This document shows positions 12,841 through 20,611 of a DNA stretch of 20,611 nt, piece after piece. How positions within the stretch are numbered: the first letter of the stretch is position 1; each line of letters begins with the position of its first letter. The notes under the pieces were generated by a model. It was not told the DNA's origin, did no database searches, and saw only the letters and a list, made by a program, of their open reading frames with translations. This stretch comes from a virus. The DNA is taken from positions 1 through 20,611 of the IMG/VR virus record IMGVR_UViG_3300010885_008559; one strand, written 5' to 3'. A program made the position numbers and the translations under genes.

Positions 12841-14886
12841 ATGCCACTCAAGACCCCTCCAGTTCAGTATGATTTGATACGCCTTGGCGGCGGTTTGGAT
12901 CAAGTCACTCCTACACTTTCTTTACCTCCCGGCTTTGCTCGCAAGGCCGCTAATTTTGAAGCCTCCATTACAGGGGGTTACACGCGCATTGTTGGATACG
13001 AGCGTTACGACGGGAGGCCAAGTCCTTCTTCTGCAATTTATGTTATTTTGATATGCAGCTTGACAGGCACTGTCGCTGTAGGCAATACCATCATCGGCCA
13101 GTCTTCCGCCGCTACTGGCAAAGTTATTGCGCTTGACGGTAGTACTGTTGTTATTACCCGTGAGGTCGGAACTTTCTTAGCAACTGAAGGCTTTTTAGTT
13201 GGCGCAACACCCGTTGGTACGATCACCACAATTCAAGGCGTTGACGCAGACGGCTACCAAGATGCGGTTTACCGCAACCTTGCTGCCGACGACTACCGAG
13301 CCGACATCACTGTTGTGCCCGGTTCTGGCAACATCCTAGGGGTCGGAATCCACGCTGGTATTTTGTACGCTTGGCGCAACAACGTTGGCGCTACAGCGGC
13401 CGTTATGTACAAAGCCACGGCATCTGGTTGGACCATAGTAACTTTTGGCAAAACAATGCGCTTTAACTTGGGCGTTATTGCGATACCCGACGGGTCCACA
13501 ATTAACGGTCAAACCAGTGGCGCTACGGCAGTGGTATCTCGCACCATGCTTGCGTCCGGGAGCTATTCCGCAGGCACAGCAGCCGGCCAATTAGTTTTAT
13601 CCAGCGTTACAGGCGTGTTTACGATTGGCGAAAACATTCGCATTAGTACAACGGTTTATGCGGTAGTAGTTTCTGTGCCCGTTCAAATTACTTTGCTTCC
13701 TAACGGCAGATTTGAAACAGTGATTGCCAACTTTGGTGGAGGCACAGCTAACGCCAAAATGTACGGGGCTGATGGCGTAAACAAAGCTTTTGAATTTGAC
13801 GGCACCGTGTTTGCGCCCATCCCGACCACAATGACAACGGACACTCCAGTGCACGTCGTTGTTCACAAACAGCACCTGTTTTTGAGCTTCGGTTCTTCGT
13901 TGCAGTTTTCAGCAATTGGCAATCCCTACCAATGGAGCCCGGTGCTGGGCGCGGGCGAGATTGCAATGAATGGCCCGATCAGCAATATGATTGCTTTGCC
14001 GGGTGACCAGTCAAGCGGCGCCTTAGCAGTCTATACCCGTCATGACACCTCGGTTCTGTACGGAACTAGCTCAGCAAACTTTGCGCTGTCTACGTTCAAC
14101 ACCGGAACGGGCGCTATGCCTTACTCAGCTCAAAACATGGATCAGTCCTACGTGTTGGACGATCGCGGTATTGTTAGTTTGGGTACGTCGTTAAACTTTG
14201 GTAACTTTACGCCGGCAACGCTGACCATGCCGTTGCGCCCATTTTTGACTAACCGAATTAACTTGACCACGGCCAGCACGCTTAGTCGAGAGAAGGGCCA
14301 GTACCGCGTGTTCTTTAGCGACGGCACTGCGCTTTACATGACCATATTAAACGGCAAGCTGCTTGGCACAATGCCTGTTGAACTGTTGGACCCCGTGCTT
14401 TGCGCAGTTGAAGGTGAGACAACCAACGGTTCAGCGGTTCAGTACTTTGGATCTGACAACGGCATGGTCTACCAGCTTGACAGAGGTACTAGCTTTGACG
14501 GTGATGCTATTGCGGCCAACTTTAACTTGGTTTATAACAGTACCAGATCTCCCCGCGTGCTTAAGCGATACCGCCATAGCAGTGTAGAGATGACCGGCAA
14601 TTACTATGCCCGAATTGAATTTGGATATGATTTAGGTTACCGTACAGATTACTTAACCCAGCCTCTTGACGAAACCCATGACGTTGATTTGAGATCTTCG
14701 TTTTGGGATAGCATGATCTGGGACAACTTTGTTTGGGATGGATCCGATGTTACCCCCTCAGAGATTGGTCTAACCGGAACTGCTGAAAATATGGGGATCC
14801 GTATTTCATCAACGTCCGACATTCTTCAACCTTTTACGGTGAATAGCATTATTATTCACTACACTTTGCGCCGAGGACTTCGATGA
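12841..14886 (+). CDS. Tail nozzle / stopper-like structural protein, 681 aa
   Basis: AAAGGAGG precedes the ATG at 12841. The opening DLIRLGGGLDQVTPTLSLPP and following ANFEASITGGYTRIVGYERY are typical of podovirus tail tube or nozzle proteins. So are the middle block AVYTRHDTSVLYGTSSANF and the C-terminal WDSMIWDNFVWDGSD followed by NSIIIHYTLRRGLR. Two related inserted beta domains are visible, GNTIIGQSSAATGKVIAL (residues 81-98) and GSTINGQTSGATAVVSR (218-234), both with G-x-TI-x-GQ-(S/T)-S-x-AT. These are probably surface-exposed insertions. It sits between adaptor and fibre and its TGA overlaps the fibre ATG. Confidence 0.78.
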   Translation: MPLKTPPVQYDLIRLGGGLDQVTPTLSLPPGFARKAANFEASITGGYTRIVGYERYDGRPSPSSAIYVILICSLTGTVAVGNTIIGQSSAATGKVIALDGSTVVITREVGTFLATEGFLVGATPVGTITTIQGVDADGYQDAVYRNLAADDYRADITVVPGSGNILGVGIHAGILYAWRNNVGATAAVMYKATASGWTIVTFGKTMRFNLGVIAIPDGSTINGQTSGATAVVSRTMLASGSYSAGTAAGQLVLSSVTGVFTIGENIRISTTVYAVVVSVPVQITLLPNGRFETVIANFGGGTANAKMYGADGVNKAFEFDGTVFAPIPTTMTTDTPVHVVVHKQHLFLSFGSSLQFSAIGNPYQWSPVLGAGEIAMNGPISNMIALPGDQSSGALAVYTRHDTSVLYGTSSANFALSTFNTGTGAMPYSAQNMDQSYVLDDRGIVSLGTSLNFGNFTPATLTMPLRPFLTNRINLTTASTLSREKGQYRVFFSDGTALYMTILNGKLLGTMPVELLDPVLCAVEGETTNGSAVQYFGSDNGMVYQLDRGTSFDGDAIAANFNLVYNSTRSPRVLKRYRHSSVEMTGNYYARIEFGYDLGYRTDYLTQPLDETHDVDLRSSFWDSMIWDNFVWDGSDVTPSEIGLTGTAENMGIRISSTSDILQPFTVNSIIIHYTLRRGLR

Positions 14887-17800
14887 GCAATAGCTACTAC
14901 AACCACGCCACTTACCCAACGCCCAACTCGCCGGGTTCGTCGGCCTCGTTAAGGGCTGAGTTGGAAGCGCTTACCGACGGTTTTGATCTTTTGCCCACAC
15001 TGGCCGCTAATGGATACAAAGTTGCAATGGTCAATTCAGCCGGCACGGCTTTGATTGCATCAGCGTCTCTTCAAGCCTTGGCAATCACGGCCAGCACTTT
15101 GAACAGCACACCTATTGGTGCATCCTCGGCTGCGGCCGGCACGTTCACCAATCTGACAGTTACCGGCAACGCGATTCTTGGCTCCAGCGTTGTGATTACC
15201 GGGGGCACAATAAACAGTACGCCGATCGGTGGAACAACTGCTTCAACAGGCGCTTTCACAACCGTTAGCGCCAGCTCTGGATTTACTGGCAACATTACGG
15301 GTAACGTTATTGGCAACGTGACCGGTAACGTCGTCGGCAACGTCACCGGCAATTTGACCGGCAACGTGACCGCCAGCTCCGGCACGTCGACGTTTAACAA
15401 CGTGACGATTTCCGGTGGTTTGGACATGGATGCCGGTACCGTAGCCACCATTACAAATCTGGCCACCCCAACCAACTCAGGCGATGCGGCCACTAAAGGT
15501 TACGTAGATACCGCAGACGCCCTTAAACTGGCCTTGGCTGGTGGCACGATGTCGGGCGCTATCGCCATGAACACCAGTAAAATTACTGGCATGGGCGATC
15601 CAACATCTGCCCAAGATGCGGCAACAAAAAACTACGTTGACAACACCGCACAAGGGCTGGATGCAAAGGCATCTTGCGTTGCAGCCACTACGGCCAACAT
15701 TACCTTGTCGGCCCCTCAAACAATTGACGGCGTGTCGGTTCTTTCAGGAGACCGGGTATTGGTTAAAGACCAAACCACCACGGCTAATAACGGCATTTAC
15801 GTAGTAGCCGCCGGCACTTGGAGCCGCGCCACGGATGCTGATACTTGGGTGGAGTTGACATCAGCTTTTACGTTTGTTGAAGCAGGTACGGTCAACGGAG
15901 ATAACGGTTTTGTTTGCACGATCGATGCCGGCGGCACTTTAGGTTCTACGGCTGTAACTTGGGTCCAGTTCTCAGGCGCCGGCCAAATCACCGCAGGTGC
16001 TGGCTTAACTAAGAGCGGCAACACTTTGGATGTTGGCACTGCGTCCAGCAGTCGAATTGTTGTCAACGCTAACGACATCGATTTGGCCACCACCGGCGTC
16101 GGCGCCAGCACATATAAGTCCGTGACCGTAGATACTTACGGCCGCGTGACTGCCGGCACAAATCCCACGACGCTGTCTGGTTTTGGCATCACCGATGCGT
16201 ATACACAAACGCAAGTTAACACTGCTCTTGCGCTTAAGCTTGATTTGGCTGGCGGCACGATGTCCGGTGTTATCGCCATGGGTGCAAACAAGATTACCGG
16301 CATGGCCGACCCTACGCTTGCCCAAGATGCCACGACCAAGACCTACGTAGACGGCATTCTGGGCAGCGCTACCAGCGCGGCGGCTTCAGCTTCTGCCGCA
16401 GCAACAAGTGCAACCAACGCGGGCAACAGCGCCACGTCATCGGCCAGCAGCGCCACGGCGGCCGCAGGAAGCGCTACGGCAGCGGCCGCGTCATACGATT
16501 CGTTTGATGACCGATACCTTGGTCCAAAAGCTACTGACCCGACGTTGGACAACGACGGTAATGCTTTGCTAACAGGTGCTTTGTATTTCAACACCACGAC
16601 AAGCGAAATGCGCGTGTACACCGGCGCTACTTGGCTGACCGCATACTTGCCGGCCAGTGGTTACTTAGCCCTTTCCGGCGGCACCATGACCGGCGCAATT
16701 ACATTTGCAGCCGGTCAAGGTTTTACAGGTGTTCTTAATGGCACCTTGGGCGCAACAACGGCAAACACAGCAGCAGTCACAACTTTATCCGCTTCAAGCA
16801 CCGTAACGCTTTCAGCACTAACGGCGTCTTCAGCCTTGGCATTGAATGCAAGTAACAACATTGTCTCAGTTACCAACACTGGAACGGGTAGTAACGTATT
16901 GGCAACATCGCCAACGCTTGTGACACCCGCCCTTGGTACACCGAGTGCAGCAGTCTTAACTAATGCTACAGGTTTACCTATTAGCACAGGCGTAAGCGGT
17001 TTAGGTACTGGCGTTGCAACCTTTCTAGCGACCCCTTCAAGTGCAAATCTTGCGGCTGCCTTGACTGATGAAACAGGAACGGGTGCAAATGTATTTGCTA
17101 CATCACCAACCCTTGTAACTCCTATTCTTGGTACGCCTACAAGTGGTACTTTAACTAATGCTACGGGTCTGCCTATTAGCACTGGTGTAAGTGGTCTTGG
17201 AACTGGTGTAGCAACTTTCTTAGCGACTCCTTCAAGTGCAAATCTTGCGGCTGCCTTGACTGATGAAACCGGTACTGGCGCTAATGTATTTGCTACATCA
17301 CCTACTTTAGTAACCCCGATTCTTGGCACGCCCACATCTGGTGTTGCAACAAACTTAACGGGTCTGCCTTTATCAACAGGCGTAACAGGAACTTTGCCAG
17401 TCGCCAACGGTGGTACAGGTGCAACATCTTTAACTGCCAACAATGTTATTTTAGGTAATGGCACTTCTGCGGTTCAAGTAGTAGCTCCTAGCACTTCAGG
17501 TAATGTACTAACCTCTAATGGAACAACTTGGCAATCTACTGCGCCAGCCGGAGGTAGTTCAGTCAAAATATCAAGTCGTACATCAAATACGATTCTTGGT
17601 ACAGCAGACAATAGTTATTGGATTAACATTACATCAGGTACTTTTTCTCAAACTTTTACTGCCGCTGCTACATTGACTAATGGTTGGTTTTGCTACATTC
17701 GCAATTCTGGTACTGGCGTAATTACACTCGACCCTAATGGTTCAGAGTTAATTGACGGGTTGACTACTTACGAAATGTATCCCAATGAAATGCGAATTAT

Positions 17801-18776
17801 TTCGTGTACGGGTACAGCTTTTACTTCAGAGGTTATGTCTCCGTTTGCAAATACTTTTACTTCATCATTAACCTTTGTGTCCCCACCGGGTTACAGTTTT
17901 ATTGGGCTTGATTTAGTTGGCGGGGGTGGTGGCGGTGTAAATGGTGGTGCTGGGTCATTTAAATTAAATGGCGGGGGCGCTGGCGGTGCTGGCGCTCGAA
18001 ATCAAATAGTTATTGCCAATCCTGCGGCTGGAACCTCAACTACAGTAACTGTAGCGGCTGGGGGTACTGCGGGCAATGCTGGTGGAAATACATCATTTGG
18101 CACTTTAGCCTATGCTTACGGCGGGGGTGCTGGAGGTTCAACTACATCACCCGTTGATCATACTGGCGGCGGCGGCGGCGGCGGAATTGGAAGCGCAGGC
18201 CCAAACGGTACTACTGGAAATCCAAATACTCCCCCAATAGCAGGTTTACCTGCGTATGCAACACCCGGTACAAGTGGAAACTGGGATGCTCTTTATGCTG
18301 GCAATAGTAGTTTTGGTGGTGGTCGAGGCCACGGCAGTGGCACTTATCCTGCTGGCTGGGCTACTTGGGGCGGTGGCGGCGGTGGGGGCTGTAAATACGG
18401 AGGTAGTACAGGAGCCTCATCAATTCTTGGCCCCGGAGGCGGCGGCGGAGGTGGCGGTTACTATTCAACTTCTGGTCAATACAGCGGGCAAGATGGTGGA
18501 TCTTCTGGAAACATAACTGCTGGTGGAGGCGGTTCTGGCGGTGCTGGTGCTTCTGGTGGAGGAGGTAATGGCGTTGCGGGATCTACAATTGCGACTACTG
18601 GCATGGGTTCTGGCGGTGGTGGTGGTGGCGGGGCTAATACTGGTAACGGGGGCAACGGTGGCAATGGCGGGTTCCCCGGAGGTGGGGGCGGTGGTGCTGG
18701 AAGCTCTAGGAGTGGTAGTGGTGGCACTGCTGGTACTGGTGGTGCGGGTCAAGCTAGAATTTGGGGAGTTGCATAA
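14883..18776 (+). CDS. Tail fibre with modular repeats and Gly-rich tip, 1297 aa
   Basis: This is the likely receptor-binding fibre. The N-terminus is followed by a GN-repeat region (residues about 135-162), then two copies of an LALAGGTMSGAIAMN...DAATKxYVD module (about 199-253 and 449-490). Between these lies a domain with LSGDRVLVKDQTTTANNGIY (about 285-304). Next come an Ala/Ser-rich stretch (494-540), tandem 65-residue repeats from residue 666, a GGTGATSLTANNVILGNGTS segment, and a beta domain (about 895-990). A Gly-rich tip with G6-G8 runs (about 1012-1297) resembles the poly-glycine adhesin domains of phage fibres. The 3' third is visibly AT-richer at third codon positions. Confidence 0.9.
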   Translation: MSNSYYNHATYPTPNSPGSSASLRAELEALTDGFDLLPTLAANGYKVAMVNSAGTALIASASLQALAITASTLNSTPIGASSAAAGTFTNLTVTGNAILGSSVVITGGTINSTPIGGTTASTGAFTTVSASSGFTGNITGNVIGNVTGNVVGNVTGNLTGNVTASSGTSTFNNVTISGGLDMDAGTVATITNLATPTNSGDAATKGYVDTADALKLALAGGTMSGAIAMNTSKITGMGDPTSAQDAATKNYVDNTAQGLDAKASCVAATTANITLSAPQTIDGVSVLSGDRVLVKDQTTTANNGIYVVAAGTWSRATDADTWVELTSAFTFVEAGTVNGDNGFVCTIDAGGTLGSTAVTWVQFSGAGQITAGAGLTKSGNTLDVGTASSSRIVVNANDIDLATTGVGASTYKSVTVDTYGRVTAGTNPTTLSGFGITDAYTQTQVNTALALKLDLAGGTMSGVIAMGANKITGMADPTLAQDATTKTYVDGILGSATSAAASASAAATSATNAGNSATSSASSATAAAGSATAAAASYDSFDDRYLGPKATDPTLDNDGNALLTGALYFNTTTSEMRVYTGATWLTAYLPASGYLALSGGTMTGAITFAAGQGFTGVLNGTLGATTANTAAVTTLSASSTVTLSALTASSALALNASNNIVSVTNTGTGSNVLATSPTLVTPALGTPSAAVLTNATGLPISTGVSGLGTGVATFLATPSSANLAAALTDETGTGANVFATSPTLVTPILGTPTSGTLTNATGLPISTGVSGLGTGVATFLATPSSANLAAALTDETGTGANVFATSPTLVTPILGTPTSGVATNLTGLPLSTGVTGTLPVANGGTGATSLTANNVILGNGTSAVQVVAPSTSGNVLTSNGTTWQSTAPAGGSSVKISSRTSNTILGTADNSYWINITSGTFSQTFTAAATLTNGWFCYIRNSGTGVITLDPNGSELIDGLTTYEMYPNEMRIISCTGTAFTSEVMSPFANTFTSSLTFVSPPGYSFIGLDLVGGGGGGVNGGAGSFKLNGGGAGGAGARNQIVIANPAAGTSTTVTVAAGGTAGNAGGNTSFGTLAYAYGGGAGGSTTSPVDHTGGGGGGGIGSAGPNGTTGNPNTPPIAGLPAYATPGTSGNWDALYAGNSSFGGGRGHGSGTYPAGWATWGGGGGGGCKYGGSTGASSILGPGGGGGGGGYYSTSGQYSGQDGGSSGNITAGGGGSGGAGASGGGGNGVAGSTIATTGMGSGGGGGGGANTGNGGNGGNGGFPGGGGGGAGSSRSGSGGTAGTGGAGQARIWGVA
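16878..17385 (+). repeat. Tandem 195-bp coding repeats in the fibre gene
   Basis: Units begin at 16878, 17073 and 17268 and encode 65-residue modules opening TGTG(S/A)NV(L/F)ATSPTLVTP and ending SSANLAAALTDE. The third unit is truncated near 17385, where it passes into the GGTG segment. Units one and two share near-identical DNA over their last 40 or so bases, which suggests recent duplication or gene conversion. Confidence 0.85.
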
Positions 18777-18982: not shown

Positions 18983-19390
18983 ATGACCAGAACTTGTGAC
19001 GGATGCACTAAGTGTTGTGAAGGTTGGCTTTCTGCGTCTGCACATGGTCATACGTTTTACCCCGGTAAACCGTGCCATTTTTTAGGTAAGAGTTGTACGA
19101 TTTACAAAGACAGGCCAGAAGACCCCTGCAAGTCATATAAGTGCGAATGGTTGATAAATGAGGACATTCCCATGTGGATGAAGCCTGATTTATGCAATGT
19201 AATTATGACAAAGCGAACCGAAAATAATATTGAATTTTATGATCTGGCTGAAGCTGGCCAACAATTAGATTCGGCAGTATTGTCATGGGTTTTTATGTGG
19301 GCGCTGAATAAAAATAAAAATATCAAATACCAAATTAAAGGCGGCACCAACAAAATTGGGTCACAGGAATTTGTGCAAAATACCTCTTAA
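18983..19390 (+). CDS. CxxCxxCC metal-binding-type protein (YkgJ/PF03692-like), 135 aa
   Basis: The N-terminus carries the exact CxxCxxCC signature (CDGCTKCC, residues 5-12). Further cysteines follow at about 31, 38, 49 and 54 in GKPCHFLGKSCTIYKDRPED and PCKSYKCEW. This matches the putative zinc- or iron-chelating domain of the YkgJ family, which is expected to bind metal or an Fe-S cluster but whose reaction is mostly unknown. The C-terminal half (YDLAEAGQQLDSAVLSWVFM) is less typical. The ribosome site is weak. It stands between the fibre genes and the sulfotransferase in AT-richer DNA. Confidence 0.82.
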   Translation: MTRTCDGCTKCCEGWLSASAHGHTFYPGKPCHFLGKSCTIYKDRPEDPCKSYKCEWLINEDIPMWMKPDLCNVIMTKRTENNIEFYDLAEAGQQLDSAVLSWVFMWALNKNKNIKYQIKGGTNKIGSQEFVQNTS

Positions 19391-19412: not shown

Positions 19413-20201
19413 ATGCAAAAATCATTTGAACAGTTTGTTTGTTTGGGTGGCCTGCCAAGAGCCGGATCCACCCTTTTATCGTCAATTCTTTCGCAGAATC
19501 CAGAGCTTCATGCCGAGGGTAATTCTGCTGTTTGCCAATTGATGTGGGATATGCAACAGGTGTGCATAGTTAACGCTGATGAAATGCTCAAAGGCAACAA
19601 AAGGTTTGACACCCACATGGATCTCATGGCGTCTATACCTAAGACGTATTATAAAGATGTCACTGCAAAGGTTGTAATTGACAAATGTAGATCGTGGTCT
19701 GCTCCCCCAAATATGGAGATGCTTCGTAAATACATTACTCCAAACCCCAAAGTTATTGTGATGACCAGACCACTGGCGGAAGTTGTTAAGTCTTTTGCGG
19801 CTTTGCGTGAGCAAAATAACTGGATAGGCAACCCAGAGCAAGATCTTCTTGATGGTGTTGGAGAGCCAATTATGAGGTCTTACCATGCAGCGCAATGGGC
19901 TAAACACAACAACAAGGGTCAGTTTCTGTTGGTGTCGTATGCAGAATTGGTAGACGATACCAAAGCCACTGTTGAAAAAATTTACGAGTTCTGCGGATGG
20001 GAATCATTTGCACACAATTTTAATAATGTGGTAAACACGCATCCAGAAGATGACGAGTTTTATAAGATGGTAGGAATGCACGATGTGCGTCCGGATATTG
20101 GACGCCGCACTGTTGACTACAAACTCTCAAAAGGTACACTAGCTTTGTGTGAGCTGATAGAGCAAAGCAACTTTTACAAACCACCTGAAGGGGTTGTATG
20201 A
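19413..20201 (+). CDS. PAPS-dependent sulfotransferase, 262 aa
   Basis: Predicted to transfer a sulfuryl group from PAPS to an unidentified acceptor. The 5'-phosphosulfate loop is clear: GLPRAGSTLLSSIL at residues 13-26. The 3'-phosphate-binding segment is KVIVMTRPLAEVVKSFAAL at 113-131, with Arg119 and Ser127 in the expected positions. The length of 262 aa is normal. No signal peptide or membrane segment is visible, so it is probably cytosolic. The ATG at 19413 lacks a clear ribosome site. The stop overlaps the start of the APS kinase-like gene (ATGA), linking donor synthesis and transfer. The acceptor could be a sugar, lipid, tyrosine or small molecule. Confidence 0.88.
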   Translation: MQKSFEQFVCLGGLPRAGSTLLSSILSQNPELHAEGNSAVCQLMWDMQQVCIVNADEMLKGNKRFDTHMDLMASIPKTYYKDVTAKVVIDKCRSWSAPPNMEMLRKYITPNPKVIVMTRPLAEVVKSFAALREQNNWIGNPEQDLLDGVGEPIMRSYHAAQWAKHNNKGQFLLVSYAELVDDTKATVEKIYEFCGWESFAHNFNNVVNTHPEDDEFYKMVGMHDVRPDIGRRTVDYKLSKGTLALCELIEQSNFYKPPEGVV

Positions 20202-20611
20202 AAAGAATTTTGGTGATGGGCCTACCCGGCGCAGGCAAAACATATCTTGCACAGCACGTCCTTGACCATCTGCAAGCTAACCGCAAAACGGTGATGTGGT
20301 TGAACGCTGATGATGTGCGAAAGAAGTACAACGACTGGGATTTTTCTCACGAAGGGCGTATTCGTCAGAGTCTGCGGATGCGTGAGTTGGCTGACAGCTA
20401 CGATGTGGACTATGTGATCTGCGACTTTGTTGCCCCTCTTGTTGAGATGCGTAACAACTTTAAAGCTGACTGGACTGTCTGGGTTGACACTATTAACCAA
20501 GGCCGTTTTGAAGATACAAACAAAGTGTTTGTTGCACCAGAGCAGTACGACTTCAGAATCACAGAGCAGCACTCTGAAAAGTGGGGTGAGTTCATTGCTG
20601 CACACATTTTA
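20198..20611 (+). CDS. cysC: APS kinase-like protein (CysC family), truncated by window end
   Basis: The reading frame is open for 138 codons to the window edge. The P-loop GLPGAGKT is at residues 8-15. It is followed by LNADDVRKKYNDWDFSHEGR (35-54), which parallels the LDGDNVR...FSxxDR region of APS kinases, and by a helix SLRMRELAD. The segment ICDFVAPLVEMRNNF (74-88) parallels the FISPxxxxR lid, and VWVDTI and VFVAPEQYDFRITE follow. The reaction would be APS + ATP to PAPS + ADP, supplying the upstream sulfotransferase. AAGGGG precedes the ATG, which overlaps the previous stop. The 3' end is probably close, given normal CysC length. Confidence 0.82.
   Translation, partial: MKRILVMGLPGAGKTYLAQHVLDHLQANRKTVMWLNADDVRKKYNDWDFSHEGRIRQSLRMRELADSYDVDYVICDFVAPLVEMRNNFKADWTVWVDTINQGRFEDTNKVFVAPEQYDFRITEQHSEKWGEFIAAHIL

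Follow-up and report, generated by a model that had tools for sequence, protein, structure and literature searches.

Genes at the 3' end of the contig

The window, by which we mean the whole 20,611-nt stretch that was analysed, is a viral contig that makes up the whole of its record and carries phage structural genes, namely those for a terminase, a portal and an adaptor of SU10 type, a capsid, and a fibre (Pfam and PHROGs); its terminase is nearest to those of Rhizobium phages (61%). At its 3' end, a tail fibre gene is followed in order by a 69-aa ORF, a gene for a 135-aa cysteine-cluster protein, a sulfotransferase gene (ST), and a kinase ORF that is open at the contig end (position 20,611), its real C-terminus lying outside this record. 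The features are listed below.

14883..18776, + strand: tail fibre gene, 1297 aa, with a glycine-rich C-terminal region (PHROGs tail fibre matches)
18983..19390, + strand: 135-aa cysteine-cluster protein between the fibre gene and ST (phrog_9155, 5.7e-34)
19413..20201, + strand: putative PAPS-type sulfotransferase (ST), 262 aa (Pfam PF13469, 3e-19; fold model)
19449..19472, + strand: 5'-phosphosulfate loop GLPRAGST of ST, residues 13-20 (sequence; conserved in relatives)
19758..19796, + strand: 3'-phosphate-binding motif VMTRPLAEVVKSF of ST, residues 116-128 (sequence)
20198..20201, + strand: ATGA, 4-nt overlap of the ST stop and the kinase start (sequence; recurs in relatives)
20198..20611, + strand: APS-kinase-like domain, the N-terminal 138 aa of a probable kinase-nucleotidyltransferase (PF01583, 4.7e-10; near-identical full genes)
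20219..20242, + strand: P-loop GLPGAGKT, kinase residues 8-15 (sequence)

The tail fibre gene matched Pfam Gly_rich_2 at 5.7e-4, which is under the cut-off of that family. The 135-aa protein contains a weak YcgN-type cysteine cluster, and one relative of it was found in a kinase locus (L058).

The ST protein matched Sulfotransfer_3 (3e-19; 70.5 bits, cut-off 27) and Sulfotransfer_1 (5e-12). Both PAPS-binding motifs reported in a preliminary description of this DNA, GLPRAGST and VMTRPLAEVVKSF, are present, and R119 and S127 are invariant across 26 of 26 diverse relatives. The AlphaFold model of ST (pLDDT 93.5) matched sulfotransferases in the PDB, with human TPST2 at the top (1.9e-8) and the olefin-synthase and curacin sulfotransferase domains next. 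Profile, motifs, and fold identify ST as a putative PAPS-dependent sulfotransferase with sulfate transfer as its predicted activity; the best match, TPST2, is a protein-tyrosine sulfotransferase, which is compatible with a protein acceptor. Proteins of the same Sulfotransfer_3 family, annotated as sulfotransferases, occur in cyanophages (S-SKS1 and S-SRM01) and in OM43 phages, and the window ST is about 26-32% identical to those of the cyanophages. Whereas these have been reported alone, ST is paired with a candidate PAPS-forming enzyme and a fibre gene. Sulfotransferases in phages have been described with no role given (PMC10580990; PMC8290583).

The kinase gene and its complete form in relatives

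The ATGA overlap at 20,198-20,201 confirmed that the ST stop overlaps the kinase start, as had been described. The 138 aa encoded in the window matched Pfam APS_kinase (4.7e-10; 40.1 bits, cut-off 21.1), and the best matches in a profile search were APS kinases (3.9e-15). The P-loop GLPGAGKT noted previously is present. When aligned with CysC from E. coli and from SAR11, the protein kept the P-loop, the (N/D)xDxxR motif, a Phe, and an Arg and lacked the canonical lid, DPKGLYKKARxGE. In the family alignments, R41 and F49 are invariant and R54 nearly so; we take these Arg, Phe, and Arg positions, with a further Asn position, to be the APS contacts known from APS kinase structures. The Asn is replaced by Gln in the window protein and most fusions and is kept in some (L241, L280). 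The FVAP segment that the preliminary description had assigned to the lid occurs twice, and both copies align outside it: residues 77-80 fall on the CysC strand FISP, and residues 111-114 on YEAP, past the lid.

Since the canonical lid is absent, we refer to the protein as APS-kinase-like. A plain CysC was ruled out by the missing lid and by the score against the CysC equivalog TIGR00455, which was below its cut-off (28.6 versus 138.7 bits, scored on the cut protein), and unrelated P-loop kinases (zeta toxin, KTI12, and PSTK) gave weaker scores in family and structure searches. The window kinase shares the P-loop, the NADxVR, F, and R positions, and the overall fold with CysC (PF01583, TIGR00455); CysC, however, has the DPKGLYKKAR lid, whereas the family of the window kinase lacks it and is usually fused to or in an operon with a nucleotidyltransferase. 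Although it fails two CysC features, its predicted fold and its surroundings point to the APS kinase reaction.

When viral contigs were searched for the 138-aa kinase, at least about 600 relatives were obtained, the best 80 of which were 82-97% identical. In the uncut relatives with 93-97% identity, the gene encodes approximately 262 aa, of which the window part is only about half, and the kinase is followed by a second domain with the motifs GRWQPWHxGH and ISATxIR, a nucleotidyltransferase (NT). Because all of these relatives contain NT, the window gene very probably once had an NT domain beyond position 20,611. The earlier view of the second gene as a stand-alone CysC could not be upheld, as the relatives show it to be the N-terminal half of a kinase-nucleotidyltransferase (kinase-NT) and the lid is absent.

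The profile of NT is that of a cytidylyltransferase-like or NadM-like nucleotidyltransferase. HxGH is invariant in our alignments A3 and A5, and SxTxxR is invariant in A5 and nearly so in A3, which assigns NT on sequence grounds to the HxGH nucleotidyltransferase superfamily. The AlphaFold model of kinase-NT, built from a 43-row alignment, had a pLDDT of 90.9, and all 50 PDB fold matches listed were APS kinases or PAPS synthetases; the grouping with unrelated P-loop kinases that the preliminary description had named as a risk was not seen. The structure predictions proposed there for both proteins led to sulfotransferases for ST and to APS kinases and PAPS synthetases for kinase-NT.

By sequence, NT is nearest to NMN adenylyltransferases rather than to ATP sulfurylase. 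The ATP sulfurylase domain PF01747 was not among the Pfam matches of the full kinase-NT protein, and its absence ruled out a canonical Sat. NT has the GRFQPFHxGH, S/TxIR, and NPF motifs in common with NadM, the archaeal-type NMN adenylyltransferase, but it scored under every NMNAT equivalog cut-off (NadM TIGR01527, 31.6 versus 181.2 bits), has a conserved PNITNIxYGRxVGY of its own, and adjoins aprBA in SAR11. PAPS synthases (human PAPSS1 and the bacterial and giant-virus Sat/APS kinases) also combine an APS-kinase domain with an HxGH nucleotidyltransferase; they have about 620-655 aa, however, whereas kinase-NT has 262 aa in total, with a C-terminal, NadM-like NT of approximately 120 aa that lacks Sat (PF01747). 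In four Casjensviridae phages (L003 5559-6735, L087, L088, and L089), kinase-NT overlaps the gene upstream, an arrangement conserved among the four; that gene is annotated NADAR in L003, and ST is not nearby in these phages.

Linkage and neighbourhood of the gene pair

A scan of viral contigs anchored on the kinase placed an ST within 6 kb in 48 of the best 80 loci. For ST, a scan with the single window protein found two loci only, and an alignment query was used instead; the kinase was present in 23 of the 79 contigs obtained in this way, within 60 nt in 13 of them and not nearby in the other 56. Among distant phages with kinase-NT, ST was rare (5/80). Over all sets we found 45 directly adjacent pairs, which are not phylogenetically independent and were counted with no tree correction from the best 80 loci per scan. 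In these pairs ST comes first, and its end abuts or overlaps the start of the kinase gene. When ST was clustered at 50% and the kinase at 60% identity, the 45 pairs represented nine combinations of five ST clusters with seven kinase clusters, and the cluster of the window ST alone had partners from five kinase clusters. The conserved linkage that the preliminary description had proposed to look for in related phage contigs was therefore found. The pairing recurs in many unrelated phages and we do not take it to be chance; repeated re-pairing in which the order is kept is hard to get by drift.

The kinase gene was a kinase-NT fusion in 32 of the pairs and a complete kinase-only gene in 12 (134-147 aa in those read), the remaining one being the cut gene of the window. 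Because a complete kinase without NT occurs in 12 pairs, the kinase by itself can suffice for ST. The coupling of ST to a PAPS-supplying kinase is thus well supported, with activity and acceptor predicted.

ST genes of the window type lie 3' of glycine-rich genes, often tail fibres, so the fibre neighbourhood described for the window recurs in relatives. Gly_rich_2 was detected in the gene directly 5' of ST in 6 of 10 relatives tested, and a glycine-rich gene lay at most three genes upstream in 52 of 76 ST loci; the latter figure counts loci, and the background of 4.5% refers to single ORFs with a glycine-rich region, a different unit. In the kinase-anchored set, only 2 of 49 had such a gene, and the fibre link is weak there. 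The surrounding genes in that set encode RCC1-repeat proteins, a 590-aa ST that is extended by a long stretch at its C-terminus, UDP-galactopyranose mutase, and glycosyltransferases, and they include genes of heptose and 7-deazaguanine type. The theme common to both sets is surface or fibre chemistry, and this favours an acceptor at the fibre-receptor interface.

Proposed sulfation cassette, alternatives, and the SAR11 context

We consider it probable (roughly 60%) that ST and kinase(-NT) constitute a small sulfation cassette, in which PAPS is made by the second gene and sulfate is moved by ST to an acceptor at the fibre-receptor interface. The N-terminal domain of the kinase would work like an APS kinase, converting APS and ATP to PAPS, and the NT domain, which lies outside this contig, would probably make or recycle APS as a compact sulfate adenylyltransferase. 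ST, as a PAPS-dependent enzyme, would be translated in coupling with the kinase gene and would transfer sulfate to a host surface glycan or a virion fibre; we infer these activities, the direction of the NT reaction, the acceptor, and the benefit. A two-step sulfation pathway had been proposed in the preliminary description. The linkage in several independent combinations, the APS-kinase fold, and the recurrent fibre neighbourhood agree with it, but its second gene is no stand-alone CysC; superinfection exclusion was raised there as a possible outcome.

In bacterial genomes, contigs with the kinase/NT family were mostly from Pelagibacteraceae, where kinase and NT occur as one gene, as two overlapping genes, or as NT alone. 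NT lay within 6 kb of aprB in 32 of 148 Pelagibacteraceae genomes, usually at a distance of approximately 1.1 kb with an aprM-like membrane gene as the sole gene between them; the identity of AprA and AprB was confirmed by NCBIfam. Stand-alone NT genes one gene from aprB and beside an aprM-like gene were seen, for example, in SAR11 loci L329 (41-3638) and L332 (3304-6909), from genomes in which sat is mostly absent. NT tracked AprB across the 148 genomes (79/101 versus 7/47; size-stratified OR 41). Sat was present in 9 of the 148; strong PF01507 matches (CysD/CysH type) occurred in 6, none of which had the kinase or NT. A separate NadD scored over its cut-off in 24 of 25 genomes tested, with or without NT, indicating that NT is not needed as the NMNAT of SAR11 cells, a role that was thereby ruled out.

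The kinase also co-occurred with sulfotransferases in these genomes (51/73 versus 13/75; size-stratified OR 7.8, p 2e-6), an effect that sits in the smaller genomes. Some SAR11 sulfotransferases instead adjoin more CysC-like kinases (L335, L336, L337, and L338, the last also near Sat), so that there is more than one PAPS source and the correlation of sulfotransferase and kinase is not exclusive.

SAR11 is known to have aprBA as core genes without sat or cysDNCHIJ, which has been read as sulfite detoxification with the fate of APS not stated (PMC5069961, PMC12636525). The fusion of NT to an APS-kinase fold and its position beside APS reductase and beside a PAPS-using ST raise the possibility that NT makes or consumes APS; by sequence alone NT would be classed as NadM-like, and its APS role is a hypothesis. 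Our tentative reading, to which we give somewhat less than an even chance, is that NT is a compact APS-forming or APS-consuming adenylyltransferase, NadM-like by descent, that completes the aprBA route in SAR11, and that its fusion to the kinase is a 262-aa PAPS synthase accompanying phage sulfotransferases. In SAR11, NT would then complete a sat-less aprBA route of sulfite oxidation. No substitute for sat was found in the SAR11 literature searched, which is no proof of absence. NT is a concrete candidate for the fate of APS in SAR11, in which aprAB is core but sat and cysDN are absent, and it may explain the handling of activated sulfate in the ocean's commonest bacteria, a long-standing ATP sulfurylase gap.

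Kinase-NT could instead be a nucleotide or NAD salvage enzyme similar to NadR, in which the kinase phosphorylates a nucleoside and NT adenylylates it, with ST as a coincidental neighbour. Phage pathways that restore NAD are known, the NT profile matches NadM-type NMN adenylyltransferases, and the NADAR gene overlaps kinase-NT in the Casjensviridae phages. We nevertheless regard salvage as quite unlikely, given that the kinase resembles APS kinases in fold and profile rather than NRK or NadR, that the adjacency to ST is repeated in nine combinations that include kinase-only forms, and that NT adjoins aprBA in SAR11 genomes with a separate NadD. The kinase-only partners, the APS kinase fold, and the position beside aprBA also make it unlikely that kinase-NT produces an activated metabolite (NDP-X) for phage glycans in the manner of HldE, without sulfate, while ST modifies glycans in parallel with host PAPS. 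That proposal draws on the relatives among heptose-type genes (PfkB kinase, cytidylyltransferase-like, and epimerase), GLF, GT2, and GT25, and on the fact that a kinase with a nucleotidyltransferase is the usual layout for small-molecule activation.

The two genes might also be separate morons that drifted as cargo into the variable region 3' of fibre genes and share no pathway. Members of the kinase family abound in viral contigs, and most ST loci (56/79) have no kinase nearby; however, the 45 pairs keep their order and their abutting or overlapping ends with differing partners, and the co-occurrence extends to bacterial genomes, so that we hold drift to be improbable. The sulfation cassette remains the reading that we prefer.

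A predicted Sat/APS kinase and a sulfotransferase have been reported from a glycan cluster of giant viruses, and the Moumouvirus enzyme (ma457) lies near a sulfotransferase as the phage kinase does (PMC10117803). The preliminary description had called a linked donor and transferase more specific than isolated sulfur-metabolism genes; this is valid for phages, but giant viruses already have a proposed pair (PMC10117803). For phages, the literature searched contained no such pair, although absence there is no proof. As far as that literature goes, the recurrent phage ST-kinase cassette, the compact kinase-NT enzyme, and the link to aprBA are new. The cysC genes of freshwater phages (COBRA) are transcribed in situ and have been interpreted as assimilatory sulfate reduction (PMC10914622). 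The window kinase family may be among those genes, in which case sulfation would be the function indicated. Our results suggest that sulfation, and not the reduction of sulfate, is what some of the cysC genes in viruses are for. Labels of cysC and sulfotransferase that stand isolated in phage metagenomes can now be read as a sulfation pathway of two genes that is open to testing and is linked to genes for receptor binding.

Several other arrangements were observed in the kinase loci. The protein of approximately 590 aa near RCC1-repeat genes (L013 1473-3260; similar in L025-L049) has a sulfotransferase region, then a weak match to TPR, and at its C-terminus a portion resembling a heptosyltransferase-type glycosyltransferase. 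In L013-L048, the kinase is followed 3' by genes for an HldE-like cytidylyltransferase, a cupin, a PfkB kinase, and an epimerase, possibly a phage heptose or nucleotide-sugar pathway. Kinase-NT lies within a 7-deazaguanine-type cluster of GTP cyclohydrolase I, QueD-like, and QueE-like genes in L065, L072, L074, L077, and L080. Divergent sulfotransferase-like ORFs (clusters 24, 40, and 41) were found near the kinase in L059-L070; one has a Sulfotransfer_3 match under the cut-off, and the other two have no Pfam match.
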